Source: Heterotrichella gracilis
Taxonomy: Eukaryota; Sar; Xanthophyceae; Tribonematales; Xanthonemataceae
Assembly (NCBI GenBank): GCA_032358255.1
Contig: JAULBX010029157.1
Location: forward strand, 1-40,415
DNA: 40,415 nucleotides
Direction: 5' to 3'
A program made the translations under genes and the position numbers. Shown here in pieces: positions 1 through 30,701 of this stretch. A model generated the notes under the pieces. That model saw nothing but the letters and a program-made list of their open reading frames with translations, did not search any database and was not told the DNA's origin. Every line of letters starts with the position of its first letter. Position 1 is the stretch's first letter.

Positions 1-816
1 ATAGAAAGTCTGTACGGCCGATCTTGTTGTAATAAAATTGCTTTAGAGGGCATTTCCGCCGCTTCTGTGCCATCATTTCAACCGGACATGTTACGTATTG
101 CCAAAATGATTTTCGAGGGCAAGCAAAAGAATATTGTTGATGCTAAATTAATTAAAGGCATCGCTTCATATCTGAGAAAAGGTATTAATGCTGGTTATGG
201 AGAAAACACAACCGAAAAAGATGTTGAGATGCTTTTAAGTTTAGAAAAGAACGTATTTGTTTTTTCAGGTTTTAAAACATACCAACTGTTACGCGAGATT
301 ACAGACAAGCTGAAAGACGAGAAAGGAGACCTTCGCTCCTGGACTGATTTCAAAAAACAAGTTTTAAATGTTGATCAAACATATAACATAACATATTTAA
401 AGCCTGAATATGATCATGCTATTGTAGGATCACAAATGGCGAGCCAGTGGGTTGAGATCCAAAACAACAAAGACACTCTCCCGTATTTAGAATTTGACGC
501 AACGCTTGATGGCAGAACAACAGAAACGTGCCGCTCGCTTGACGGTATGTTGTTACCTGTTGATGATCCCGCATGGCAAACTTATTACTTGCCTTTGCAT
601 TGGGGTGAGAGATCTGTTATTCGGCAGGTTGCTTCAGGTAAGGTCAGCGACAAATCGAAGATCAACTTCCCGGATCTTAAACCAATGTTTGATAATAATA
701 TTGGTATGAGCGGAGTTGCTTTTCCAAAAAGCCACCCATACTACGAAGCTTCAATTGCCGATAGTAAAAAGATAATGAAAGAAGTTAATAAAATATTACC
801 TGAAGATCTGAAGTAA
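1..816 (+). CDS. Mu F-like minor head / head morphogenesis protein (5' partial)
   Basis: The frame is open from the first base, so the gene starts left of the window; the GTG at 67 is probably internal. The C-terminal part carries the signature of the phage Mu F-like / SPP1 gp7-type minor head family: FDATLDGRTTETCRSLDG, then LHWGERSVIRQV. These proteins sit at or near the portal and assist procapsid assembly. The stop overlaps the next ATG at 816, showing translational coupling to the gpG-like gene, the same order (F then G) as in Mu. Family assignment is firm; the exact role is inferred from the family. Confidence 0.8.
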   Translation: MESLYGRSCCNKIALEGISAASVPSFQPDMLRIAKMIFEGKQKNIVDAKLIKGIASYLRKGINAGYGENTTEKDVEMLLSLEKNVFVFSGFKTYQLLREITDKLKDEKGDLRSWTDFKKQVLNVDQTYNITYLKPEYDHAIVGSQMASQWVEIQNNKDTLPYLEFDATLDGRTTETCRSLDGMLLPVDDPAWQTYYLPLHWGERSVIRQVASGKVSDKSKINFPDLKPMFDNNIGMSGVAFPKSHPYYEASIADSKKIMKEVNKILPEDLK

Positions 817-1376
817 TGGATGATTTAGGAAAACAGTTTAAGCGGTTCTACATCAATACAAAAGCGGCCCTAAGTAGCTTTCCAATGATTGCTGCAAACA
901 TAGCTGTTAACTTTTTTCAAGATAGTTTTAATAAACAAGCGTGGGTTGATAGAGCTGCTCAGCGCTGGGCCAAAAGAAAGGATCAGGGCAAGCGAAATAA
1001 AGGCAGGGCAATACTAGTGTTGACTGGCCGATTAAAACGCAGCATAAGAATAAAAAGGGCAACGTGGAGCCTCGTGCAAGTTAGTAGTGATGTGCCTTAT
1101 GCCAAGGCGCATAATGAAGGTGTGAAAGGTGTGCAATACGTGAAGCCATTTAAGCGGCAGGCAACACGTAAAGCAAGGGCAAAATCATCTTATCAAAAAT
1201 TGGGCGATGAAAGAAAAGCAACAAGGCGGATGAGAATTTTAGGAGCGCGCCACAACAATAAAGGTTTTACCCGGAAGCAAAATTTACCTAAACGTCAGTT
1301 TATGGGAAATAGCCAGGCACTTAATAACAGAATTGATAGGGAGTTTCATAAACGATTAATGAAAATTGCCGCTTAA
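816..1376 (+). CDS. Phage virion morphogenesis protein (Mu gpG-like)
   Basis: A 186-aa, very basic protein with the pattern of the phage virion morphogenesis (gpG / tail completion) family: an aromatic/Trp-rich segment (AQRWAKRK), the VLTGRLKRSIR motif, and YAKAHNEG around residue 95. Family members act in head completion or head-tail joining. It starts on the last base of the F-like gene. The C-terminal third is rich in Arg and Lys (RKARAKSS, RKATRRMRILGARH), which may be a nucleic-acid-contacting or disordered tail. Confidence 0.75.
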   Translation: MDDLGKQFKRFYINTKAALSSFPMIAANIAVNFFQDSFNKQAWVDRAAQRWAKRKDQGKRNKGRAILVLTGRLKRSIRIKRATWSLVQVSSDVPYAKAHNEGVKGVQYVKPFKRQATRKARAKSSYQKLGDERKATRRMRILGARHNNKGFTRKQNLPKRQFMGNSQALNNRIDREFHKRLMKIAA

Positions 1377-1958: not shown

Positions 1959-2300
1959 ATGCAAACAAACGGAATATTAATTCACCCTCGCGGTGATGCT
2001 TTCAACTTCGCTTTTGAAGTTATTGGAAAAGATTTTACTGGGCTTTTGGTACGCTCGCATTTCAGAAGGGAAGTTGATCAACCAACACCGGATATGATCT
2101 TTCAAACCTCTGACGGATCTATTAGTGTAAACATAATTAACACTAGCAAAGCTATTATCACATTAACCAAAGATGCTGTATACATGAGTGATAAGGTTGA
2201 AGGCGTTTACAACTATGATATCGAAACATTTACGGGAGCTGGCGATATCGAAACTTTATGCTTCGGTAAATTAGAAATTGTAAAAGACATAACACGATGA
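1959..2300 (+). CDS. Small phage structural protein upstream of the fibre
   Basis: 113 aa, predicted mostly beta: short strands around FAFEVIGKDFTGLLVRSHFRRE, SVNIINTSKAIITLTKD, and a C-terminal YNYDIETFTGAGDIETLCFGKLEIV. The pattern (charged polymer-like strand, then 'YNYDIE...GKLEI...D.TR') resembles small baseplate or fibre-attachment proteins encoded just before tail fibres in Bacteroidota prophages; this is inference from position and fold feel. Its stop overlaps the start of the fibre gene by 4 bases (ATGA at 2297). Confidence 0.45.
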   Translation: MQTNGILIHPRGDAFNFAFEVIGKDFTGLLVRSHFRREVDQPTPDMIFQTSDGSISVNIINTSKAIITLTKDAVYMSDKVEGVYNYDIETFTGAGDIETLCFGKLEIVKDITR

Positions 2301-4375
2301 TACAAGTTACAGTCATTAAAAAAAATGTTACGGTTGGGGCTTATCCAATCGGACTTCCGGGATCAAAATGGAGGAGTGCAAATGGCGCACCGTCTAACTC
2401 CCTTGGCAACGAAAGTGATTATTATCTAGACAACGTTTCAGGAAACGTTTACACAAAGACTTCAGGGGCTTACGTTTTACAAACAAACATAATTGGACCT
2501 ACTGGTATTAACACCTGGGGATCAATTGGCGGAACGCTTTCAGATCAAACGGATTTGCAAAGTGCTTTATCAGCCTTATTGCCGTATACTGGAGCAACTC
2601 AGAATTTAGACATGGGCTCGTTTCATGTTTATACAGGTCGTGTTGTCGGTGGAACACTTGCTGGCTCAGCAATTGATTTTTTTGGAACAACAGGGGTTGG
2701 TGTTGGCAACGCGTTTACTTTTAGAGGCGGAAATAATGGGGGCACAATAATATTAACCCTTCTACATGATGGTACAATCAGAATACCCAATAACCGCCAA
2801 ATTCAAGGTACAGATAGCGTAGGAACAAATAGGTCAATAATTTCGTGGAGCTCAGGAGACAATATTTCATTAATAGGTCGGCCAGGTATAACTGATATTG
2901 TATTAAATCCAACCGTTTCCGGTGTTGGTTTATATGTAAAATCAAACGGGGATATTGGACTAGGTTCTGCCAGCCCATCTGCAAGAGCGCACATAATTAA
3001 AACCACAGAACAACTTAGGATAGGTTACGATCTAACAAACTATATTTCTTGCACAGTAACCTCTGCCGGAGCAATTAATTTTGTATCTAACGGAACAGCG
3101 CCTGGCTTTAATTTTGGAAACGCTGCAAATACAAACCAACGTGTAGTTCGCGTAGGTCAAGACACGGCGTTTTTAGACATTGGCTCACAAATTGGTACGA
3201 CAGCGCAGTTGGCTCTTTACGCAAACAGAACATCACCAACTGCAACAAATCATTTTTTAACGAGTGATGGGAATAATACATACCTAAATACTCAAACAGG
3301 TTCTGCAATTTATATTCAAAACGCAACAAACACCTTAGCTTTTTTTACATCGGCGCAAACTTCCTTTAGCGGAATAGCTACCACTAGCGGCGCATTAAGT
3401 AATTTTATATTTACAAAACCAAATAATACAAATCAAACAACTGCAACAAACATACCGGGTTATTTATTCACTACAGGAACACGACAATGGGCTAACGGTG
3501 GTTTTGCTTTACAAGAAGAGTTTAAAATAACCTCCCCTACATACTCGCATGTTTCGGGCTCTAATACAATAGCGGTTGCGACAACGCTTAGCGTTTATGC
3601 GCCGACAACAAGTGGAGGTTTTACAACAATTACAAATAATTATTCAGCCATATTTAATAATGGAAATGGTATAAAAATTCAAACCGGATCTATAACAGGT
3701 GAGGGTGTGGTTATTGGCAATTTAGTTGGGGGAGCAACTAATGGCGCAATATATTTAGCTCAGGCAACGCCAAGCTCTACTAATTACTCTTTAAGGGGTG
3801 ATGGCGCTGTAACAATTGTAAACGGTAATGCTAATAGCGTTTTATTAAGGGTTTCAGATGTAAATCAGATAAACGTTGGAACAACTTCGCAAATATTTAC
3901 TCCAAGCGGCGCAACTTCGGGAGCTGTAACCGCTTTTACTTTTACAAAGGCTGGTTATTCAGGACAAACGGCAACGACAAATATACCCGGATTTTTATTT
4001 ACAACAGGTAGCAGGACGTGGTTAAATGGCGCTTTAACATTGCAAGAAGAGGTAAGAATAACCGCTCCGATTTATTCTCACGTTTCAGGAAGTAATACGA
4101 TTACATACGCAACAACATTATCCGTAAGCAAACCAACAACAAGCGGCGGCTTTACAACACTTACAAATTCATTAGCAGCAATACTTAATGGATCAGTATC
4201 TATTGGAAATAGTCTGGCGCCTACTTTAGGAGCTGGTGATGGTGTTTTATTTATTGCAAACGCAACAACGGTTCCAACGACGAATCCGACTGGCGGCGGA
4301 ATAGTTTATGTTGAGGCTGGCGCTTTAAAGTATCGTGGATCATCAGGAACAGTAACAGTTTTAGGTATAGCATAA
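2297..4375 (+). CDS. Tail fibre-like protein with internal duplication
   Basis: 692 aa, rich in Thr, Asn, Gly and Ser. The N-terminal 60 residues may be the attachment part, followed by a short GPTGI collagen-like turn and a TLSDQTDLQSALS segment typical of phage fibres. Residues about 372-455 and 549-632 are a diverged duplication: both contain NIPG(Y/F)LFTTG, LQEE, YSHVSGSNTI and PTTSGGFTT. The C-terminus (GGGIVYVEAGALKYRGSSG) resembles the terminal segment of many Bacteroidota fibre proteins. Probable receptor-binding or spike-extending protein. I see no copy of the DGR variable repeat in it. Confidence 0.7.
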   Translation: MIQVTVIKKNVTVGAYPIGLPGSKWRSANGAPSNSLGNESDYYLDNVSGNVYTKTSGAYVLQTNIIGPTGINTWGSIGGTLSDQTDLQSALSALLPYTGATQNLDMGSFHVYTGRVVGGTLAGSAIDFFGTTGVGVGNAFTFRGGNNGGTIILTLLHDGTIRIPNNRQIQGTDSVGTNRSIISWSSGDNISLIGRPGITDIVLNPTVSGVGLYVKSNGDIGLGSASPSARAHIIKTTEQLRIGYDLTNYISCTVTSAGAINFVSNGTAPGFNFGNAANTNQRVVRVGQDTAFLDIGSQIGTTAQLALYANRTSPTATNHFLTSDGNNTYLNTQTGSAIYIQNATNTLAFFTSAQTSFSGIATTSGALSNFIFTKPNNTNQTTATNIPGYLFTTGTRQWANGGFALQEEFKITSPTYSHVSGSNTIAVATTLSVYAPTTSGGFTTITNNYSAIFNNGNGIKIQTGSITGEGVVIGNLVGGATNGAIYLAQATPSSTNYSLRGDGAVTIVNGNANSVLLRVSDVNQINVGTTSQIFTPSGATSGAVTAFTFTKAGYSGQTATTNIPGFLFTTGSRTWLNGALTLQEEVRITAPIYSHVSGSNTITYATTLSVSKPTTSGGFTTLTNSLAAILNGSVSIGNSLAPTLGAGDGVLFIANATTVPTTNPTGGGIVYVEAGALKYRGSSGTVTVLGIA

Positions 4376-6604: not shown

Positions 6605-6901
6605 TTAAGTGAATTTAAATCGTTCGTTATCTTCTACAATTGTTGTTTTAAAAGGGAAAGCGTCTTTAGGTATTTTTTCTATCATTTCAATAAGGAAACC
6701 GGAGCCGGTGAAAACAACGTGTTTTGTATCGTTCAAGCTAATCTGAATATGCAAACACTTTCCTGAGTTGAATTTTGAAGGCTCAATTTTAAAAGCGTGA
6801 ACAATAATTTCACGGTTTAAAACTTTGTGCATTTTTACTTTGTCACCTGTAAAGCTTTGTGTTTCGTTTGGCTGTATGTTTAAGTCTTTAAAGTCTTTCA
6901 T
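6605..6901 (-). CDS. RT-coupled small phage protein, unknown function
   Basis: 98 aa. Its ATG overlaps the RT stop codon (ATGA, 6901-6898), so it is translationally coupled to the DGR reverse transcriptase. Predicted all-beta with a C-terminal FPFKTTIVEDNERFKFT and a central LHIQISLNDTKHVVFTGSGFLIEMI, which looks OB-fold- or SSB-like to me but carries no decisive motif. It does not look like Avd, which is a helical bundle of about 120 aa. Could be a general phage replication protein or a DGR accessory factor; the sequence does not decide. Confidence 0.55.
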   Translation of the reverse strand: MKDFKDLNIQPNETQSFTGDKVKMHKVLNREIIVHAFKIEPSKFNSGKCLHIQISLNDTKHVVFTGSGFLIEMIEKIPKDAFPFKTTIVEDNERFKFT

Positions 6902-7848
6902 GCTGCTAATTTGTTTAATAGATTAATTGTATTTGCGTGTTTTGCCCAACCTTTATACGAGGCAATTGATGCTGCGTTTTTTCTTTTTGCAAGCATTCGT
7001 GCGAAACTTTTTTTAATGCTTTTACGAAGCATGGTATGTGTGTGATAAAAACGATACCCAACAAAATCAATACTACGAGCCGAAACAGGAAACGCTTGAT
7101 AATTATCTTTAACGATTAACTTTAATTCGTCATTTAAATAACGCTTAATGTCAGATAAAAGGGAGTGCAATTCAGGCTTGTTACTGGAAAGGATTACAAG
7201 ATCATCTGCATAACGGAAATAGTATTTTACTTTTTTTTGCTCTTTAATCCAATGATCAAAATAAGAAAGATAAAAGTTAGCGAAATACTGGCTCAAATAG
7301 TTTCCAATTGGAACACCAGCGGCACTATCAATTATCTCATCAAGCAACCAAAGCATTTCAGCATCTTTAATTTTACGGCGTAGTAAAGCTTTTAAAATAT
7401 CATGGTCAATGTTTGGGTAAAACTTCTTTATATCCATTTTAAGGCAATATTGAGTTCCCACCTTGTCGGTTAGTGCTTTTTGCACAGCTCGTGCGGCTGC
7501 GTGTATTCCTTTGCCTTTTATACAGCTATACGTATCCGTAGTGAAAGTGTTAACGAACATTTTTTCTAAAACATTCATTATAGCGTGATGTGTAATGCGA
7601 TCAGGAAAATAAGGGAGGCAGAATACCTCCCTTTCTTTTGGTTCATACACTTTGAATGTTTTGTATTGTGATGTTTTGTAAGTCCTGTTAAGCAACATTT
7701 CGTGAAGCTTGAAGATGTTACTTTCCTGGTCTCTGTTATGAACTTGAACGCCGTATTGGTTTGCTTTTCCCTTGCTGGCTTTTTTATCTGCAAGGCGTAA
7801 GTTTTCAATACTGATTACTTGTTGGTATATGTTGTTTATTCTTTTCAT
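6898..7848 (-). CDS. DGR-type reverse transcriptase
   Basis: 316 aa. RT motifs in order: LKMDIKKFYPNI with the first catalytic Asp at D139; GVPIGNYLSQ at 179-187, matching the DGR-specific GxxxSQ form of motif 4; FRYADD with catalytic D215/D216; and DFVGYRF near 260-267. DGR RTs copy the template RNA into cDNA while misincorporating opposite adenines, then the cDNA replaces the variable repeat. The identity is settled by context: the template repeat lies 103 bp upstream and two variable-repeat genes upstream of that. The protein is short for the family (usually about 330-400 aa) but has all catalytic residues. Confidence 0.95.
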   Translation of the reverse strand: MKRINNIYQQVISIENLRLADKKASKGKANQYGVQVHNRDQESNIFKLHEMLLNRTYKTSQYKTFKVYEPKEREVFCLPYFPDRITHHAIMNVLEKMFVNTFTTDTYSCIKGKGIHAAARAVQKALTDKVGTQYCLKMDIKKFYPNIDHDILKALLRRKIKDAEMLWLLDEIIDSAAGVPIGNYLSQYFANFYLSYFDHWIKEQKKVKYYFRYADDLVILSSNKPELHSLLSDIKRYLNDELKLIVKDNYQAFPVSARSIDFVGYRFYHTHTMLRKSIKKSFARMLAKRKNAASIASYKGWAKHANTINLLNKLAA

Positions 7849-8058
7849 TCCTTTGCTTCAAAAGGTCGCTTTCCCTTTCGGTACTAACACCCTTTTTTAT
7901 TTCTTTATTTTTTGCCTTGTTGGCAAGGTCTGTGTTGTTAATTCTATCTCGCATAGGTGCGAGCTGACATTCGAATTCGTGTTATCGTTATCGTAATCGT
8001 TGTACGAGAAACTGACACCCGGAGAAGCTCAGCCCATACAACACACAACCTCAATTTA
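7849..8058 (-). ncRNA. DGR template RNA region
   Basis: 210-bp non-coding stretch between the second target gene and the RT, containing the template repeat at 7951-8028. In known DGRs the template RNA extends from the end of the target gene through TR to the RT start, with the 3' part folding to prime or engage RT. Exact ends cannot be set from sequence. Transcription would come from the leftward phage operon; I see no strong dedicated promoter. Confidence 0.75.
7951..8028 (-). repeat. DGR template repeat (TR)
   Basis: 78 nt, with 20 adenines on the minus strand. It aligns without gaps to VR1 (8137-8214; 15 mismatches) and over 71 nt to VR2 (8520-8590; 14 mismatches). Every mismatch in both alignments is at a template adenine. 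Read in the VR frame, the template has many AAC/AAT/GAT/TAC codons, the usual DGR design that lets adenine mutation reach many residues without creating stops. Confidence 0.97.
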
Positions 8059-8433
8059 CTATTCGATTAAAAAATAATCTTTATGCAGCTGCTCAAATTG
8101 CTGACCTGCATACTCAGCAAGCTTGCTTGATTTGAAGCAAAGGCGCGAGCCGACACGCGAACTCGTGAGAACGCCATCGCAACCGTCGTACGAGAAACCG
8201 ACACCCGGAGAAGCCCCTTTCTCACCCATTCTAAACCAAGGGTAATATTTCCACTCGCTCCAATCTTCCCAATTAGGTTTCCAGCCCTTGTTTAATGCTT
8301 GCGCGATTATTACAAGTTGGTAATGAGCCACAATTGCTTTGCGTTGTTGCTCAGGCAATGCACTTACATCAGGCAATGTGTTTGATATTCCTAATGCTTT
8401 ACAAGCATCATCGAATGTTTTGATTTCTTTCAT
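8059..8433 (-). CDS. DGR variable protein 1 (target protein)
   Basis: 124 aa. Layout: helical N-terminus starting KTFDDACKALGIS, a WKPNW/EWKYYPWF segment at about 52-67, the variable repeat at residues about 73-99 (GVGFSYDGCDG...RVGSRLC), then a conserved tail FKSSKLAEYAGQQF. It shares the whole architecture with the 159-aa protein encoded just upstream, consistent with duplication. This looks like the small DGR target family of Bacteroidota prophages; a C-type-lectin-like fold is the usual DGR scaffold but I cannot confirm it here. No signal peptide or membrane segment. Ligand unknown. Confidence 0.88.
   Translation of the reverse strand: MKEIKTFDDACKALGISNTLPDVSALPEQQRKAIVAHYQLVIIAQALNKGWKPNWEDWSEWKYYPWFRMGEKGASPGVGFSYDGCDGVLTSSRVGSRLCFKSSKLAEYAGQQFEQLHKDYFLIE
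8137..8214 (-). repeat. DGR variable repeat VR1
   Basis: 78-nt match to the template at 7951-8028. 63 positions are identical and 15 differ, all 15 at template adenines (15 of 20 adenines changed). Outcomes include G, C and T. Identity stops just beyond the conserved 3' end CGCGCCTTTGC, where the initiation-of-homing site is expected. Confidence 0.97.
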
Positions 8434-8445
8434 GTTGTTGGGGTT

Positions 8446-8925
8446 TTAAATTAAAAAGTCGTTGTAAATATTTTGAAATTGTTTACCTGCATAAATTGCA
8501 AGATCGCTCGTTTTAAAAGAAAGGCGCGAGCCGACACCCGAAGACGCGTTACCGAGATCGTAACCGTAGTACGAGAAACCGACACCCGGATTGAACTTAA
8601 ACCACGGATAGTATTTGTATTCACTAGAGTTTGAATAATCAGGTGTCCAGCCTTCATTTAACGCTTTAGCAATTATTGTAAGCTTTGCGTGTGCTTGGTG
8701 TGATAACATATCTTTATCAGTACCATTGTAATCCAATAGTGTTTTTATGTTATCTGATGCGCCAACTATTTCAAGGGCATCATCAAATGTTTTAACCCGA
8801 TCTTTAATGTCTTTTGGTTTAAACAGATCTTCCCCGAAAAGGGCTTCTAATACTTTTTTTACTTCTGTGCTTGCCTGTTTATAGGCGCCGATGGCATTTG
8901 CCTGACTGATTTCTGCTTTTTGCAT
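8446..8925 (-). CDS. DGR variable protein 2 (target protein)
   Basis: 159 aa. It has an extra N-terminal helical segment (AIGAYKQASTEVKKVLEALFG) relative to variable protein 1, then the shared KTFDDALEIVG, AKALNEGWTPDY, SEYKYYPWFKF, the variable repeat at residues about 113-136 (GVGFSYYGYDLG...GVGSRLS) and the shared FKTSDLAIYAGKQF tail. The open frame through the VR is intact. It starts 10 bp before the preceding 74-aa gene ends and lies 12 bp upstream of variable protein 1, so both targets are in one transcript with TR and RT. Confidence 0.88.
   Translation of the reverse strand: MQKAEISQANAIGAYKQASTEVKKVLEALFGEDLFKPKDIKDRVKTFDDALEIVGASDNIKTLLDYNGTDKDMLSHQAHAKLTIIAKALNEGWTPDYSNSSEYKYYPWFKFNPGVGFSYYGYDLGNASSGVGSRLSFKTSDLAIYAGKQFQNIYNDFLI
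8520..8590 (-). repeat. DGR variable repeat VR2
   Basis: 71-nt gap-free match to the template. 14 positions differ, all at template adenines. VR1 and VR2 carry different base choices at many of those positions, so they were diversified independently and one is not a simple copy of the other. Confidence 0.97.
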
Positions 8926-8935
8926 GGTTTTATTT

Positions 8936-9160
8936 TTATTGGTTTATATACATTTCTTTTGGGTAAACTAAATTGTAAAGTGGTGATGGTTTCCTCTCTT
9001 CTACATATTCAAATTTTACTGGGATTTTTGCGGGATCTTTTTCTTTTGGTTTGTATTTGCAGTATTTCAATTTTGTAAATAAGGCCCTCTGCTTTTTTTC
9101 TTTCTCCGCTGCAATTATTGCCTTTATTACTTCAACATCTATCTTCCAATAATTCCGCAT
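8936..9160 (-). CDS. Small hypothetical phage protein
   Basis: 74 aa, Lys-rich and basic (AAEKEKKQRALFTKLKYCKYKPKEKD), with a helical N-terminal half starting VEVIKAIIAAEKEKK and a Pro-rich C-terminus. It precedes the first DGR target by 10 bp. Compact operon spacing and intact frame support a real gene. Function not recognised. Confidence 0.5.
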   Translation of the reverse strand: MRNYWKIDVEVIKAIIAAEKEKKQRALFTKLKYCKYKPKEKDPAKIPVKFEYVEERKPSPLYNLVYPKEMYINQ

Positions 9161-15132: not shown

Positions 15133-17154
15133 TTAAAGGTTTTTGTATATATCAAAGTCCTCTTGTCCTTCGTTTACATTTACTGGCACGAGTTCGGTTT
15201 CCTTTTTAAGGATCTCGCCAAAATCAACTGGTACCTTTTTTGCTTTTTTGCGTTTGCTATTGATGCCGAGAACTTTTGGTTTATTTAAGCCGTAATCTTC
15301 AACCGACATGTTGTTATCAGAAAGGATCTCGTCCATTTTAGTAACTCGCTCAACACGCGCGGTGTCGTTCATCTTTTTTACAGCAGCTATGTATAAGTGA
15401 TCTTCAGCCGTTTGCTCTTGCTTACCGCGCGAGATTTCAACCTTTGTAATTGCTTCTGTTACAAAACGTAGATTGTCGTTCGCATCCTTATCGTATAAAT
15501 AAATAAGGTTCATGTCTTCAGGATCAAATTTTACATAGAACTTTTTATCTATGTTCTTGCGATGCCATTCCATATCGGGTACGCGATCTGCTGTGTAAAC
15601 TGTATAAGTGTATTGCTGGTTTTTTTCTTTGAACGTAAGGCCGTAAGCGGTATATGTAACAGGTTTTTCGCGGAGTACCCAAAAGATATCTACCATGTCC
15701 CACATCTCAACTTTTGGTGTCGCTGGGTTGGTACTGTTCAAATACATTTCCATTCTGCTGATTCCTGTTTTTGGGTGCGGCGCGCTGTTCCATTCGTCGC
15801 GACGTTGTTTGTACTTTAATTTGATCTCTGTTAAGGTTGGGAGGTTGGCTTTATTAGCGTTGATCATTTCCAAATTTGCTTTGCTTTCAATTCGCTTCGC
15901 CTGAATATTTTGTCCGGTAAAGAACCAATCCTGTTTTAAAAATTGACTCTGAAAACGATTAAATGCACTTTCGATTGTTTTTGATTTACCGTTATATGGT
16001 TGCGTTGCAATTGCTAGGTGTGAGATCTTTGATAAGAACGTTCCGGCAATAAGTTTTTTGTGACCACCTTGGTTATCAAATCCAAGTTGGTAGGGTTTAT
16101 GCCCTGCAAATTGTACGGCCATTTTATAAGCGCTGTATTGCGTTTGATAATCTTCCGACTCGCTAACATAGTAACCTAAAAGAACCTCGCTATATGCGTC
16201 CATTACTTCGTACACGCTTATTGTTGAGATCTTGCCCGCTTCGTTTTGGTAGAAGTAGTTTAATTTTGTACCATCTGAATACCACAAACTGTCTCGCATG
16301 GTTGGTAATTTTGTTGAGTGCTGGAAGCCAAACTTTTCTTTTGATTTTAACTCGCCGTGTCTATGCGCCCACCACATTTCTTGAATATCCTCTCTATATA
16401 AAAAAAGGTGAAGTGATAAAGAGCTGTCCAATTGTTTCCAGCCTTTCTCTGCTGCGGCTGCGTTGTATTCCACGAACAGTTGATTTTCATTTGCAACTTT
16501 TCTTACGCGATCAGCCCATCTTGACAACACCCATAGTTTTGCATCAGGATTAATTTTTTCACTATTGATGTTGCCGTAGTTTTTGTGTACTAAACCGTAA
16601 TACCCGCTTTGATTGTAACGTGCAAGCGCGCGTTGTAAGCTTCTTGCGTTTGTCGGTAAAGAGTGGCTATATTTAGTTTTGTCTAAACTATTTATAACCT
16701 CGCTCATGTTTTCCCAAACCTTTGTTGCGCGACCGCCTAAAGCTTTACAGCGAGCCTTGCGATTTGAAACCATTAATTGAATGGTGTTGAGAAGATCTGC
16801 ATTAACACAATATTCTTTTTGCTTTGCTTCTGAAAGAGAGAGGTCTTCGTTGTACCTATAATCTCTGAAGTAAATAATTGCGGCGGTGTCCTTTATAATA
16901 AAATCCTGAAAAGCTTCGTGTTTTACAGTCTTGTATGGATCTCCAAACTTTTCAATTATTGCTTCTTTCCATTCGGTTGGCAGCAATTCATAATTAACTA
17001 AAGCTTGGCGACCTGGGCATGCGCTGCGCTCTTTTTTCAGGGTTTTACGGATACACATTTTTTTGTAAACATCGTATGATATAAAAAGCATCGCTTCGTA
17101 TAAAGTCTCAGCTGTTATGCATAGTGTGTTTTGGTGATATTCGTAAACCTTCAT
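15133..17154 (-). CDS. MuA-like DDE transposase
   Basis: 673 aa, close to MuA's 663. N-terminal DNA-binding region (a winged-helix type start, then LPTEWKEAIIEKFGDP), a bipartite DNA-binding middle (LPTNARSLQRALARYNQSGYYG at about 166-188), the catalytic core, and a Mu C-type beta-barrel (about 530-600). Catalytic triad: D294 in WYSDGTKLN, D360 in LGFDNQGGHKK and E395 in KTIESAFNRF; the D-E spacing of 35 resembles retroviral integrase more than Mu's own longer spacing. It cuts and joins phage ends to target DNA in integration and replicative transposition. Confidence 0.95.
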   Translation of the reverse strand: MKVYEYHQNTLCITAETLYEAMLFISYDVYKKMCIRKTLKKERSACPGRQALVNYELLPTEWKEAIIEKFGDPYKTVKHEAFQDFIIKDTAAIIYFRDYRYNEDLSLSEAKQKEYCVNADLLNTIQLMVSNRKARCKALGGRATKVWENMSEVINSLDKTKYSHSLPTNARSLQRALARYNQSGYYGLVHKNYGNINSEKINPDAKLWVLSRWADRVRKVANENQLFVEYNAAAAEKGWKQLDSSLSLHLFLYREDIQEMWWAHRHGELKSKEKFGFQHSTKLPTMRDSLWYSDGTKLNYFYQNEAGKISTISVYEVMDAYSEVLLGYYVSESEDYQTQYSAYKMAVQFAGHKPYQLGFDNQGGHKKLIAGTFLSKISHLAIATQPYNGKSKTIESAFNRFQSQFLKQDWFFTGQNIQAKRIESKANLEMINANKANLPTLTEIKLKYKQRRDEWNSAPHPKTGISRMEMYLNSTNPATPKVEMWDMVDIFWVLREKPVTYTAYGLTFKEKNQQYTYTVYTADRVPDMEWHRKNIDKKFYVKFDPEDMNLIYLYDKDANDNLRFVTEAITKVEISRGKQEQTAEDHLYIAAVKKMNDTARVERVTKMDEILSDNNMSVEDYGLNKPKVLGINSKRKKAKKVPVDFGEILKKETELVPVNVNEGQEDFDIYKNL

Positions 17155-17506: not shown

Positions 17507-18190
17507 ATGAATCAAGATGAAAAAATTGCCGACAGGCTTAGGTTAATAAGAAAAGAACTTGAGTTGGGCCAAGAAGAGTTTGCGGTCGAACTCGGCACTA
17601 CGCAAGGAAACATATCTAACTATGAAGCTGGAAGGCGCGAGCCGTCTACTGATTTTATAGTATTGATCTCGGATAAGTACAATGTGCCAATTGAGTGGTT
17701 ATTAAAAGGCGTTGGAACGCCGTTTACAAAGGATTTAAAGGTCGTTAATGAGCCGGGATCTAAGTATATTAAGAAAGATAGGGTTGATAAGGGCCTTCCG
17801 TTGATTCCGTTTGATGCAATGGCAGGATATGCCAACGGAAACTCCCAAATAACCTACATGGAGTCGGAACGGTATATTATACCCGATTTCACAAGTAGGA
17901 AAGCAGACTTTTTAATTAAAATCACTGGTACCAGTATGTCTCCCAAATATTATAGTGGCGACATTATAGCTTGTAAGATTGTTCCAAAGGAAACCTTTAT
18001 TCAGTGGGGCAAGGTCTATGTTATGGATACAGTTCAGGGCGTAATGTGCAAACGTCTTTACGCCTGTAAAGAAAAAGATGATCATGTGATGGCGGTTAGT
18101 GAAAATAAGGAACTTTACCCTGAATTTCAGCTACCCAAAAAGGAAATAAAAAAGCTGGCGATCGTTGTAGGCTTAATAAGACTTGAATAA
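17507..18190 (+). CDS. CI/LexA-type phage repressor (XRE HTH + peptidase S24)
   Basis: 227 aa. N-terminal XRE HTH at about 7-65 (LGTTQGNISNYEAGRREPS), C-terminal S24 peptidase: cleavage site A106-G107 (DAMAGYAN), catalytic Ser143 in GTSMSP and Lys182 in VMCKRL. Such repressors hold lysogeny and self-cleave when RecA is activated. It is divergent from the transposase operon across a 119-bp region containing operator palindromes, and the half site before its ATG suggests autoregulation. Mu's own repressor is not S24-type, so induction here is probably SOS-linked. Confidence 0.92.
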   Translation: MNQDEKIADRLRLIRKELELGQEEFAVELGTTQGNISNYEAGRREPSTDFIVLISDKYNVPIEWLLKGVGTPFTKDLKVVNEPGSKYIKKDRVDKGLPLIPFDAMAGYANGNSQITYMESERYIIPDFTSRKADFLIKITGTSMSPKYYSGDIIACKIVPKETFIQWGKVYVMDTVQGVMCKRLYACKEKDDHVMAVSENKELYPEFQLPKKEIKKLAIVVGLIRLE

Positions 18191-18348: not shown

Positions 18349-18381
18349 GTTTTACTAAACAGTTTGTTTTAGCCCTTGAAG

Positions 18382-18417
18382 TGTCCCCCCATGTGTCCCC
18401 CCATTTGTCCCCCCGAT
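18382..18417 (+). repeat. Triple 12-bp direct repeat with C6 tracts
   Basis: Three tandem units beginning TGTCCCCCC at 18382, 18394 and 18406, exact 12-bp period. A further CCCCCCAT core is present in inverted orientation at 18294-18301 (ATGGGGGG). The last unit abuts the first transposase-site-like motif at 18416. Function unknown. Confidence 0.85.
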
Positions 18418-27473: not shown

Positions 27474-30400
27474 TTAAATTCCTATTCCAACTACTAAAAC
27501 GTCGTCTACTTGCTCGTGATTTTGCCTCCATTGATTAAAACTTAACATTAACTCCTTCTTTTGATCTTCAGGGCTATGCAAATGTATTGTGCATAACAGA
27601 TCATGGAAACGTTTTACCATGTATTTTTTACCTCTGTCGCCTCCAAATTGATCGGCATAACCATCAGATGTTAAATAGGCCATAGCAGGATTTTTTAACT
27701 TAATTAACTGCGTGGTAAACATCCGGTTTATATCCAATTGAGCGCCGCCTACGGGAAATTTATTGCCATCAAATTTTAAGAATTCTCCGGTAGAATCAAC
27801 CGTAATTAAAGGTCTATTAGCCCCTGCCCACTTTACCTCCTTAGTAGTATCGTTAATAGTAATTAAAGAAACATCCATACCATCGTTGGTATTGATTTCG
27901 TTCTGTCCTTGCCTTAAAGCTTCTTGCACGCCTTTATGTAAATTATTTAAAATATCGGCAGGGTCTGTAATTCCTTTCTCGGAAACGATCTGGTGTAATA
28001 GATTATGGCCGATCATGCTCATAAAAGCTCCTGGCACACCATGACCGGTACAATCAACAACTGCTAATATCTTTATCCCATTTTTTTCGGCAAACCAATA
28101 AAAGTCGCCACTAACAATATCCTTTGGCTGATAAAGAATAAATGCTCTGTTAAGTTTTTTAAAGATTTGGTCTTTTGATGGTAAAATAGCTTCTTGTATA
28201 CGTTTTGCATACTCAATACTGCTCGTGATATCGTTATTTTTTTCTTCGAGTTCGCGGGTCCTTTCGGCCACTTTATTTTCGAGTATCTTATTCTCTTTTT
28301 TAATAGCTCTGGTGCGGTATTGAGTAAAGGCATAAATACTTCCGCCTGCAAAAATCACAAGGAAAAAATAAAATAATTTTGTTTTCCAAAATGGAGGAAC
28401 CACTTCAATTGTGATCTCAAAAGGATTATCATTCCAAACACCATCGTTATTGGTTGCTTTAACTAAAAATTTATACTCACCCCCCGGCAATTCAGTATAA
28501 GACACATAGCGTACATTTGTCGGCGCAGACCAATCATTATCATATCCCTCTAATTTATATTTGAATTTGTTCTTTGAAGGATCGGTATAATCCAATGCCG
28601 CTAACTCAAATTGAAAATAGTTTTCCCGCCAACTTAATTTTAAATATTTTTTGTAAGCGATGAAAGAATCTACACTTATATCTTTTCCTCCTCTTTTATA
28701 ACCCGTAATAAAAGAATTTGGGGCCAATAAGTTATCTTTAATTAATGTTGGTCTGAATACATTATATCCTTTTGAACCTCCAAAATACATAGTACCGGAT
28801 GGGGATACAAAAGCGGCACCAACGTTATATTCGGTATTTAATAAACCGTCTTTAATACCATAACTTTTAAAAATGATCTCATTTTCCTTCTGCATAGGAT
28901 CAAATTTAATGATACCATAATTGGAACTCATCCAAAAATTATTTACACTGTCTTTTAAGAGGGAATATAGATAGGTGTTAGGTAAACCATCTTTTTCATA
29001 AAAATTATAAAAAGTTTTGTTTGGTAGAAATTTACTAAGTCCTGCAGAAGTTGCCACCCATATGTTCCCATTCTTATCTTCATTTACACCGAATACAATA
29101 TTAGTTGCAATATTCTCTGGCTTTCCCTCATTTTTATAAACTTGCTCGATATTTAATTTGTCGCCAAGAGGAAACTCTTTTAGTTTTAACAGACCACCGT
29201 CGTAGGTGCCAATCCATACCACTCCTTTAGAATCTTTAAAAATGGTATTGATATTCAAATTAGGTAAACCTTCTTTTGTACCAAAGTGTTTCACTTCCAA
29301 TGTTTTTAAATTAACTCTAAATAAGCCATCTCCGAAGGTTCCTACAAATAAATTACCGTTCCCATCGCCTTTGAGGCACAATACCGTTCCTCCAAGTTTT
29401 TTATCGATAATTGTTTTTACTGTTTTTGTTGCCCTGTCAAAACGCAGTAACCCTATGCCCCAAGTGCCTAACCAATACATATTACTATGTTCTTCATAAA
29501 TAGAAAGTACACTGTTATCGTCCAATATATCAGAATGATCTGTAACCTGACCATTCTTATCCATAAAGACAAAAATATTCTCGCCTCCAATAATGCGTTC
29601 TTTATTTTTTGTTTCATAAAATGAATATAAATTATGAAATTGATGTTGTTTATCATCTTCAACATCTGGAAATTTTACTGATTTAAAAAAAGAAACATTT
29701 ACTCCGCCTAATTGCGTTCCCAACCATGAGTTATTTTGATTATCTAAAAAAACAGTCTTGATTATATTGTCATTTATTTTAAAAGGATTTGAATTTTCTT
29801 TATTCTCGTTATTAATTATCTTACCACTTAATAAATTATAAACAACAAACCCATAAGATGTGCCTGCGTATAAACGGTTGCCATTTATTAAAAAATAATT
29901 TATAACATTTAAACTCGCATTTGGACTATTGGTAAACAGGATTTGTTGATCTATTTCAAAAGTATTAATGTCTGTTTTGAATATCCCTGATTTTATTGTG
30001 CCTAAATAAAGCTTTCCAGCATACTCTTGCATACAAGTAATTGATTCCAGATCTAAAGGTTTGTAATCAAATAAATTTGGATTAATAAAATTTACCCTTT
30101 CTAACTTATTGTTTGAAAAAAGCCATAAGCCTTTTTCTTTAGTGCCAAGAAAAAATTTACCATTAATTTCTTTAATACAATTTATACTTATTTGTCCTTC
30201 AATCGGAAATTCATAGCGTTTAACCGCCTTTGTAGATATATTTACAGAAAATAAACCATCATCACTCCCTAAAATTATATTGTCATTATTCATGACAGCA
30301 ATAGCATTGATCTTAACATTCGTACCTTTTACATTGTTTAACCTTGTAAATTGTAACGTTATGGGGTTGAAAAAATTAATACCATCGCGCGTTCCCACAA

Positions 30401-30689
30401 TAATAAGATCTGGTCGTAATTGTTTTAAACAGGTAATTTCAGAACTTGAAAGCGACTGTAAGGTGGTAGGGTCATTCTTAAAAATGGTAAAACCATATCC
30501 ATCATACTTGTTAAGACCATCCTGTGTGCCAAACCACATAAAACCCCTATCATCCTGCATAATTGAGGTAACGTAGTTAGTACTTAAACCCTCTTCATTT
30601 GTAATGTGCTTAAAGCGTAGTTGCTGCGAATAAGAACTACTTGCAATAATAAGGGCTAATGCTGAAAATATATATTTTAAGAGCTTCAA
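27474..30689 (-). CDS. SiaA-like sensor: beta-propeller, Y_Y_Y, SpoIIE/PP2C phosphatase
   Basis: About 1070 aa. Order: signal peptide, two-component-type propeller repeats (about 30-640; e.g. DDRGFMWFGTQDGLNKYDG), a Y_Y_Y domain (about 690-765), one membrane segment (about 775-795), a coiled coil (KVAERTRELEEKNND), and a cytoplasmic SpoIIE-type phosphatase (IVSGDFYWF, VVDCTGHGVPGAFMSMIGH, LTSDGYADQFGG, QVDDVLVVGI). A periplasmic signal is thus read by the propeller and passed to a phosphatase instead of a histidine kinase; its target should be SiaC-P. No ATG: I prefer the TTG at 30689, giving KLLKYIFSALALIIA as signal start; a TTG at 30698 is possible. Confidence 0.9.
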   Translation of the reverse strand: MKLLKYIFSALALIIASSSYSQQLRFKHITNEEGLSTNYVTSIMQDDRGFMWFGTQDGLNKYDGYGFTIFKNDPTTLQSLSSSEITCLKQLRPDLIIVGTRDGINFFNPITLQFTRLNNVKGTNVKINAIAVMNNDNIILGSDDGLFSVNISTKAVKRYEFPIEGQISINCIKEINGKFFLGTKEKGLWLFSNNKLERVNFINPNLFDYKPLDLESITCMQEYAGKLYLGTIKSGIFKTDINTFEIDQQILFTNSPNASLNVINYFLINGNRLYAGTSYGFVVYNLLSGKIINNENKENSNPFKINDNIIKTVFLDNQNNSWLGTQLGGVNVSFFKSVKFPDVEDDKQHQFHNLYSFYETKNKERIIGGENIFVFMDKNGQVTDHSDILDDNSVLSIYEEHSNMYWLGTWGIGLLRFDRATKTVKTIIDKKLGGTVLCLKGDGNGNLFVGTFGDGLFRVNLKTLEVKHFGTKEGLPNLNINTIFKDSKGVVWIGTYDGGLLKLKEFPLGDKLNIEQVYKNEGKPENIATNIVFGVNEDKNGNIWVATSAGLSKFLPNKTFYNFYEKDGLPNTYLYSLLKDSVNNFWMSSNYGIIKFDPMQKENEIIFKSYGIKDGLLNTEYNVGAAFVSPSGTMYFGGSKGYNVFRPTLIKDNLLAPNSFITGYKRGGKDISVDSFIAYKKYLKLSWRENYFQFELAALDYTDPSKNKFKYKLEGYDNDWSAPTNVRYVSYTELPGGEYKFLVKATNNDGVWNDNPFEITIEVVPPFWKTKLFYFFLVIFAGGSIYAFTQYRTRAIKKENKILENKVAERTRELEEKNNDITSSIEYAKRIQEAILPSKDQIFKKLNRAFILYQPKDIVSGDFYWFAEKNGIKILAVVDCTGHGVPGAFMSMIGHNLLHQIVSEKGITDPADILNNLHKGVQEALRQGQNEINTNDGMDVSLITINDTTKEVKWAGANRPLITVDSTGEFLKFDGNKFPVGGAQLDINRMFTTQLIKLKNPAMAYLTSDGYADQFGGDRGKKYMVKRFHDLLCTIHLHSPEDQKKELMLSFNQWRQNHEQVDDVLVVGIGI

Positions 30690-30701
30690 AATAAACAACT
30701 A

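Follow-up and report, generated by a model that had tools for sequence, protein, structure and literature searches.

The window analysed here is the whole of contig JAULBX010029157.1 (40,415 nucleotides, forward strand) from the Heterotrichella gracilis assembly GCA_032358255.1. Between positions 6605 and 8925 it carries a diversity-generating retroelement (DGR), with a reverse transcriptase (RT), a template repeat (TR) and two target genes that each contain a variable repeat (VR). The RT, the TR and both targets are on one strand, the minus strand, which is the sense strand for TR, VR1 and VR2. The RT gene is followed by a small gene whose product is modelled as an OB fold. We hold with good confidence that this is the DGR of a truncated Mu-like Bacteroidota prophage, that it rewrites two targets, and that the OB protein would serve as a subunit of the RT complex in place of the accessory protein Avd. 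The features of the cassette are:

6605–6901, minus strand: 98-residue basic protein modelled as an OB fold (phrog_19665), candidate DGR accessory; its start codon overlaps the RT stop codon
6898–7848, minus strand: DGR reverse transcriptase, 316 residues (PF00078, E 3.6e-20; phrog_1423, E 2.4e-125), with motifs IGNYLSQ and YADD
7849–7950, minus strand: TR-RT spacer, a structured RNA with a hairpin (7913–7925) and a helix (7887–7893 with 7863–7869), supported by covariation and a sub-threshold match to Rfam RT-17
7951–8028, minus strand: TR, with 20 A in the sense strand, located by repeat comparison
7953–7965, minus strand: 3' end of the TR, putatively IMH*-like, with near-fixed TR/VR differences at 7965, 7958 and 7954
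8059–8433, minus strand: target 1, 124 residues, phrog_11581 family, contains VR1
8137–8214, minus strand: VR1 within target 1; 15 of 78 positions differ from the TR, all at A
8446–8925, minus strand: target 2, 159 residues, phrog_11581 family, contains VR2
8520–8590, minus strand: VR2 within target 2; 14 of 71 positions differ from the TR, all at A

Adenine-restricted differences and the twin targets

A repeat search gives three copies, at 7951–8028 (TR), 8137–8214 (VR1) and 8518–8595, within which the true VR2 repeat spans 8520–8590. Repeat and gene mapping agree with the first-pass annotation that the RT, the TR and the two VRs share a strand, and its difference counts are reproduced: all 29 TR/VR differences sit at the 20 TR adenines. 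Under random placement, the probability that every mismatch falls on A is 3.5e-12 for the 15 in VR1 and 1.6e-10 for the 14 in VR2. VR1 and VR2 do carry different bases at several sites, as had been claimed; at the 20 A sites there are six with different bases, six with the same changed base, five changed in one VR and three unchanged. Both VRs lie in coding target genes, and the reading frame is kept.

Four of the 20 A sites (8013, 7965, 7958 and 7954) behave differently from the inner A sites, whose VR bases are mixed. At these four, both window VRs carry a base that is almost fixed across the family: in cells with a TR adenine, the VR base is G at 8013 (92 of 94), 7965 (141 of 142) and 7958 (127 of 132), and T at 7954 (100 of 102). 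The columns were counted over 76 TRs and 148 VRs (one pair from locus L003 was dropped; L numbers are our locus labels), and their near-zero mismatch at other bases is by construction, because the pairs were chosen by an adenine-permissive scan. The TR has A at the four sites in 48, 73, 68 and 52 of the 76 TRs, respectively. Because these bases are near-fixed family-wide, eight of the 29 differences are no evidence of random mutagenesis, and the earlier view of the differences as the mark of DGR retrohoming holds for the remaining 21. The near-fixed sites could mark the borders of transfer, by analogy with IMH and IMH* in BPP-1; alternatively, they could be kept by selection on the encoded residues. 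Without them each target has 11 variable codons, in which a stop is impossible, and a theoretical repertoire of about 3e9 proteins. No cruciform stands out after the VRs: over 248 alignment rows, two of which are repeats, the best perfect arm in 45 nt averages 3.96, compared with 3.80 in shuffles.

Relatives of the RT were collected as the best 80 of 304 from viral contigs and 73 from bacterial and archaeal genomes, which with the window make 154 loci. Bacteroidota groups predominate in the record titles of the 73, and Ignavibacteria, Clostridia and others also occur (uncounted). For 118 of the 154 loci, unmasked alignment was possible between open reading frames (ORFs) of the target family and the sequence preceding the RT; the 36 others, which have no ORF of this family, are contig ends or have other targets. 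The 248 alignment rows represent 246 distinct VRs (in L070 and L110 a second ORF lies over one VR), of which 235 are ungapped and were used and 11 are gapped and were left out. In the 235, which include those of the window, 3180 of 4700 template adenines are mismatched and only 83 of 13324 other bases, and at least 75% of the mismatches are at A in each pair. Differences at other positions are rare in related copies; the similar rate that the first-pass annotation had named as contrary to its reading is not seen. Dereplication to 99 loci with RTs less than 95% identical leaves 2671 mismatches in 3961 A and 68 in 11143 other positions. The adenine-permissive scan of the 80 viral loci yields 147 runs on the sense strand; a cytosine mask yields none there, and the other strand gives one run with the A mask and 11 with the C mask, the antisense C runs pairing the same repeats with roles reversed.

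The check that the annotation had proposed, a search for relatives with the same TR and divergent VRs, yielded two pairs. In the first, L083 and L010, the RT and the TR are identical, and the differences comprise 10 of the 20 A in VR1 and 11 of the 20 in VR2; the remaining positions, 56 in VR1 and 60 in VR2, agree throughout. L042 and L044 are identical in RT, TR and VR1, and their VR2s differ at 11 of 20 A and none of 61 others. These differences indicate that rewriting in the relatives is recent and able to strike one target alone; the L042/L044 pair supports the proposal that the two targets are rewritten independently from one template. The other 16 of 18 identical-RT pairs show no VR difference, and many of them are probably one genome in two collections. 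Pairs whose TRs could not be registered through indels were left out (L064/L065; L070/L065; L042, L044 and L046 against L045; L009/L022).

At least two targets are present in 112 of the 118 loci. Two VRs are found in 97, three in 14, four in one and one in six; among the 99 dereplicated loci the numbers are 78, 14, one and six. Three of the six single-VR loci (L081, L050 and L062) have little sequence before the RT. In a target tree calculated with the VR excised, the near and far labels change 3 times, compared with 30.4 in shuffles (none of 500 as low); the tree covers 45 of 95 usable two-target loci and has few columns, and neither the near nor the far group is strictly a clade. From this tree the pair looks like two old paralogous lineages that have persisted together. 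Further VRs of the same TR, 3.8–6.8 kb from the RT, are present in L080, L076, L102 and L110; L110 has four distinct VRs.

Both targets are paralogues within phrog_11581, a family of no known function whose members have median pI 5.3–5.5. The C-type lectin fold is usual for the VR domain of DGRs. In the target 1 model, confidence is largely confined to the helical N-terminal region; pLDDT is <50 at residues 75–77 and 79–86. A PDB fold search with this model gave no match. The targets need not be tail fibres, because they lie off the structural-gene strand. A distant target homologue is present in a Bacteroides phage, LoVEphage (L157, 3869–4453); the 8.4 kb covered there have no annotated RT.

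The putative OB-fold protein and the spacer RNA

The first-pass annotation correctly listed RT, TR and VRs as parts of the element and omitted two others, the OB gene at 6605–6901 and the structured RNA between TR and RT. Clustering of ORFs places the 98-residue product of the former in a family of about 99 residues that is present in 141 of the 154 RT loci. The gene lies no more than 60 nt behind the RT in 122 of these, further downstream in 10 and upstream in eight, and has an extended start in one. Since downstream, distant and upstream placements all occur, the OB protein stays with the RT when gene order changes. The 13 loci without the family comprise two RT fusions (L094 and L018), two contig edges (L015 and L135), eight RTs less than 50% identical, and L152, which has another gene at that position.

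In both fusions the OB domain is in frame with the RT, at residues 316–414 in L094 (E 2.6e-40) and at residues 320–390 in L018, which is cut by the contig end. A C-terminal fusion is also found in hankyphage (Bacteroides phage p00), whose 434-residue RT matches the OB profile at residues 327–423 (E 7e-18). In L124, L125, L131, L132, L115, L122, L123 and L146 the OB gene is upstream and ends about 245–280 nt before the RT, the position at which BPP-1 has avd; no target ORFs of the phrog_11581 family were found in these eight loci.

A search of viral contigs with the OB alignment leads back to the same cassettes. Among the best 80 of 120 relatives, 79 have an RT upstream, at a median gap of 5 nt with one of 196; this is not an independent sample, because the query came from RT-linked loci and many of the contigs recur from the RT search. 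The remaining one (L209, 1787–3264) is a cassette with two targets, a TR and an OB gene and no RT between them, which is either a remnant or served in trans. When 50,697 named phage records were searched with tblastn at E up to 0.01, only ANMV-1 and vir525 matched the OB protein. Both have archaeal hosts and carry the OB gene directly after a DGR-type RT (vir525 was judged by its RT and OB gene).

The OB protein is basic (median pI 8.9, n = 67), its predicted structure looks like an OB fold, and it is predicted to bind single-stranded DNA or RNA. The bAvd protein (PF22296) is absent from 36 of 37 viral records of relatives of at least 30 kb, in a search that recovered the BPP-1 control; the sole match (L078, 366–677) is roughly 12 kb from its cassette. 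In the window, the RT, the targets, the 98-residue gene and the stretch 8936–9160 gave no bAvd match. We read the OB protein as an Avd substitute.

Covariation is seen in the RNA of the TR-RT spacer, which is a relative of Rfam RT-17. An alignment of 53 spacers gives a hairpin and a longer helix, with changes on both sides in 10 of 12 pairs. Pairing is kept in 95.3% of cells, compared with 77.4% in shuffles and at most 45.6% when the structure is slid, figures that are favoured by the derivation of the structure from the same sequences. The window scores below threshold with both Rfam models that were compared, 28.9 bits for RT-17 (RF03020; threshold 40.4) and 32.9 bits for RT-14 (RF02921; threshold 48.1). 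RT-17 is above threshold in five of 27 scanned relatives, and in each the match ends beside the RT start, so that in these loci the motif, like the window spacer, is directly upstream of a DGR RT. Of 51 other sources, a model built from the 53 spacers matches 41 at E up to 0.1 and 39 at 0.001, with part of its score coming from sequence at the TR end and RT start. Among the matches are crAss cr55_1 (E 4.5e-7) and, weakly, LMMB (0.02); BPP-1 and hankyphage gave none. RT-17, an orphan Rfam motif, is now placed between the TR and the RT of DGRs.

Known systems and rival explanations

In BPP-1 the spacer RNA is reported to recruit RT and Avd, and the cDNA, primed inside that RNA, takes the place of the VR (PMC12875486). 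The window shares with BPP-1 an RT, a TR, VRs and adenine mutagenesis, whereas BPP-1 has bAvd (PF22296), one annotated VR and no OB protein in the stretch scanned. The crAssphage LMMB DGR, of the Avd-less 'lineage 3' in the classification of Wu et al. 2018 as given in PMC7290462, has the same order of target, TR and RT, no avd gene and a related RT (47.6% identical); its target is a tail-collar fibre, whereas the window has two small targets on the early-gene strand. An OB gene after the RT, as in the window, is not detectable in LMMB, cr55, cr52_1 or cr6_1. The small crAss genes behind the RT were considered as OB homologues and rejected by profile, and a divergent OB domain in the longer RTs of LMMB and cr55 was dropped as its match was not significant.

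Hankyphage is, like the inferred source of the window, a Mu-like phage of Bacteroidota with an A-specific VR (PMC6199706, PMC12135933). Its RT is 31.7% identical to that of the window and carries its OB domain by fusion, and it has one VR in a very large ORF where the window has two small targets. An Avd-like ORF has been reported in it by size and charge (PMC6199706); a scan of its record with PF22296 found no bAvd. In ANMV-1 the OB homologue AJP62065.1, a 'hypothetical protein', starts 2 nt after the RT; this virus differs from the window in its archaeal host and single annotated target, adtA, and a figure legend labels one of its ORFs as Avd (PMC4372165). The tentaclin phages nd4 and nd12 also have one TR and two VRs in two genes; their targets are C-lec proteins of different build, one of 569–579 residues, whereas those of the window are two small paralogues of the same family (PMC10743442).

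By mechanism the element is an ordinary DGR. The RT would copy one TR RNA and make errors at its adenines, and the resulting cDNA would replace VR1 and VR2, so that two small paralogous proteins are diversified at 11 codons each. In Avd's place the OB protein may bind the template RNA or single-stranded cDNA in priming or retrohoming; as an alternative to acting at the RNA, it may shield and anneal the cDNA. More generally, a second class of DGR accessory, a basic OB protein that is separate or fused to the RT, probably replaces Avd in Bacteroidota phages and some archaeal viruses, where with an RT-17-type RNA it would handle template RNA or cDNA. Two observations weigh against this. Named phage records with an RT relative number 171, so most of them do not show the OB protein, and crAss cr52_1 and cr6_1 have none beside RTs that are 55% and 53% identical. 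The stronger proposal, that RTs of this kinship are always accompanied by an OB protein, was dropped because of these two crAss phages.

The OB gene might instead be a single-strand-binding (SSB) replication gene of the phage that merely lies behind the RT of an ordinary Avd-less DGR. OB folds are common among phage replication genes, the cassette shares the early-gene strand with MuA and MuB, and related crAss DGR RTs lack the OB gene. We consider this unlikely, in view of an OB gene that accompanies the RT through changes of gene order and target family and into archaeal viruses, is fused to the RT in three loci, and in the non-independent OB-found sample described above lay in a DGR cassette in all 80 loci. 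Less likely still is a decayed, once-active DGR in a dead prophage fragment, without present function. In its favour, the contig end truncates the phage, and no close relative was found, the best RT among the matches listed being 79% identical, so current activity cannot be read from near relatives. Against it, open frames are present for the RT, the OB gene and both targets, the RT has YADD, and rewriting of the VRs has left both target frames in place.

That the element is not a DGR, its repeats being duplicated genes and its RT of group II intron, retron or defence type, is hardly credible. Targets 1 and 2 are paralogues, and the RT does match group II, Drt and retron models. These matches are nevertheless far below cut-offs (122.6 bits with the group II intron RT model, cut-off 300), as for the BPP-1 RT (99.7 bits), and profile score and the IGxxxSQ motif together speak against the group II placement against which the first-pass annotation had guarded. 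This motif, which we take to be a mark of DGR RTs, is present in 153 of the 154 RT loci, as is xxDD. The confinement of differences to adenine (p 2e-10 or less per VR) also argues against this reading, and the predominance of A in the mismatches of all 235 ungapped pairs refutes it.

For roughly one DGR in four, no accessory gene is said to be known (PMC7290462), and the entry of cDNA into the target is incompletely understood (PMC12875486). The small OB-fold-like protein that travels with the RT and fuses to it is a concrete candidate for this missing partner. Hankyphage, which has an RT-fused OB domain and a DGR reported to be active (PMC12135933), is a ready test case for an accessory role. 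The DGR mechanism itself is already known; of the candidate accessory no description, and no link of DGRs to OB-fold or single-strand-binding proteins, was found in the literature searches, some of which were aimed at such a link. No priority is claimed.

Prophage setting

The surrounding genes are consistent with the earlier placement of the DGR in a Mu-like prophage, which is incomplete: the contig starts inside the late genes and truncates that region. The DGR cassette is on the early-gene strand with MuA and MuB, and the late genes are on the opposite strand.

1–1376, plus strand: late genes, Mu F-like head (PF04233, E 5.6e-8) and neck/tail completion (phrog_26, E 4e-15), cut by the contig end
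14266–15111, minus strand: MuB-type transposition gene (phrog_296, E 1.3e-55)
15133–17154, minus strand: MuA-type transposition gene (phrog_310, E 1.8e-74)
17507–18190, plus strand: phage repressor, helix-turn-helix and S24 peptidase (phrog_4, E 2e-35)

A GemA match is below cut-off, with a DUF3164 nearby. Past the repressor gene, at 18381–18414, three repeats that contain TGTCCCCCC stand in tandem and may be close to the phage end. The late strand also encodes a repetitive, tail-fibre-looking protein of 692 residues (2297–4375) that has no Pfam or PHROG match. The assembly comprises 903 contigs and 68.5 Mb, and the window is one of these contigs in full. The DNA of the window is bacterial-looking; it is probably contaminant or symbiont DNA in the eukaryote's assembly. 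A host gene at 27474–30698 combines two-component propeller, Y_Y_Y and SpoIIE phosphatase domains.

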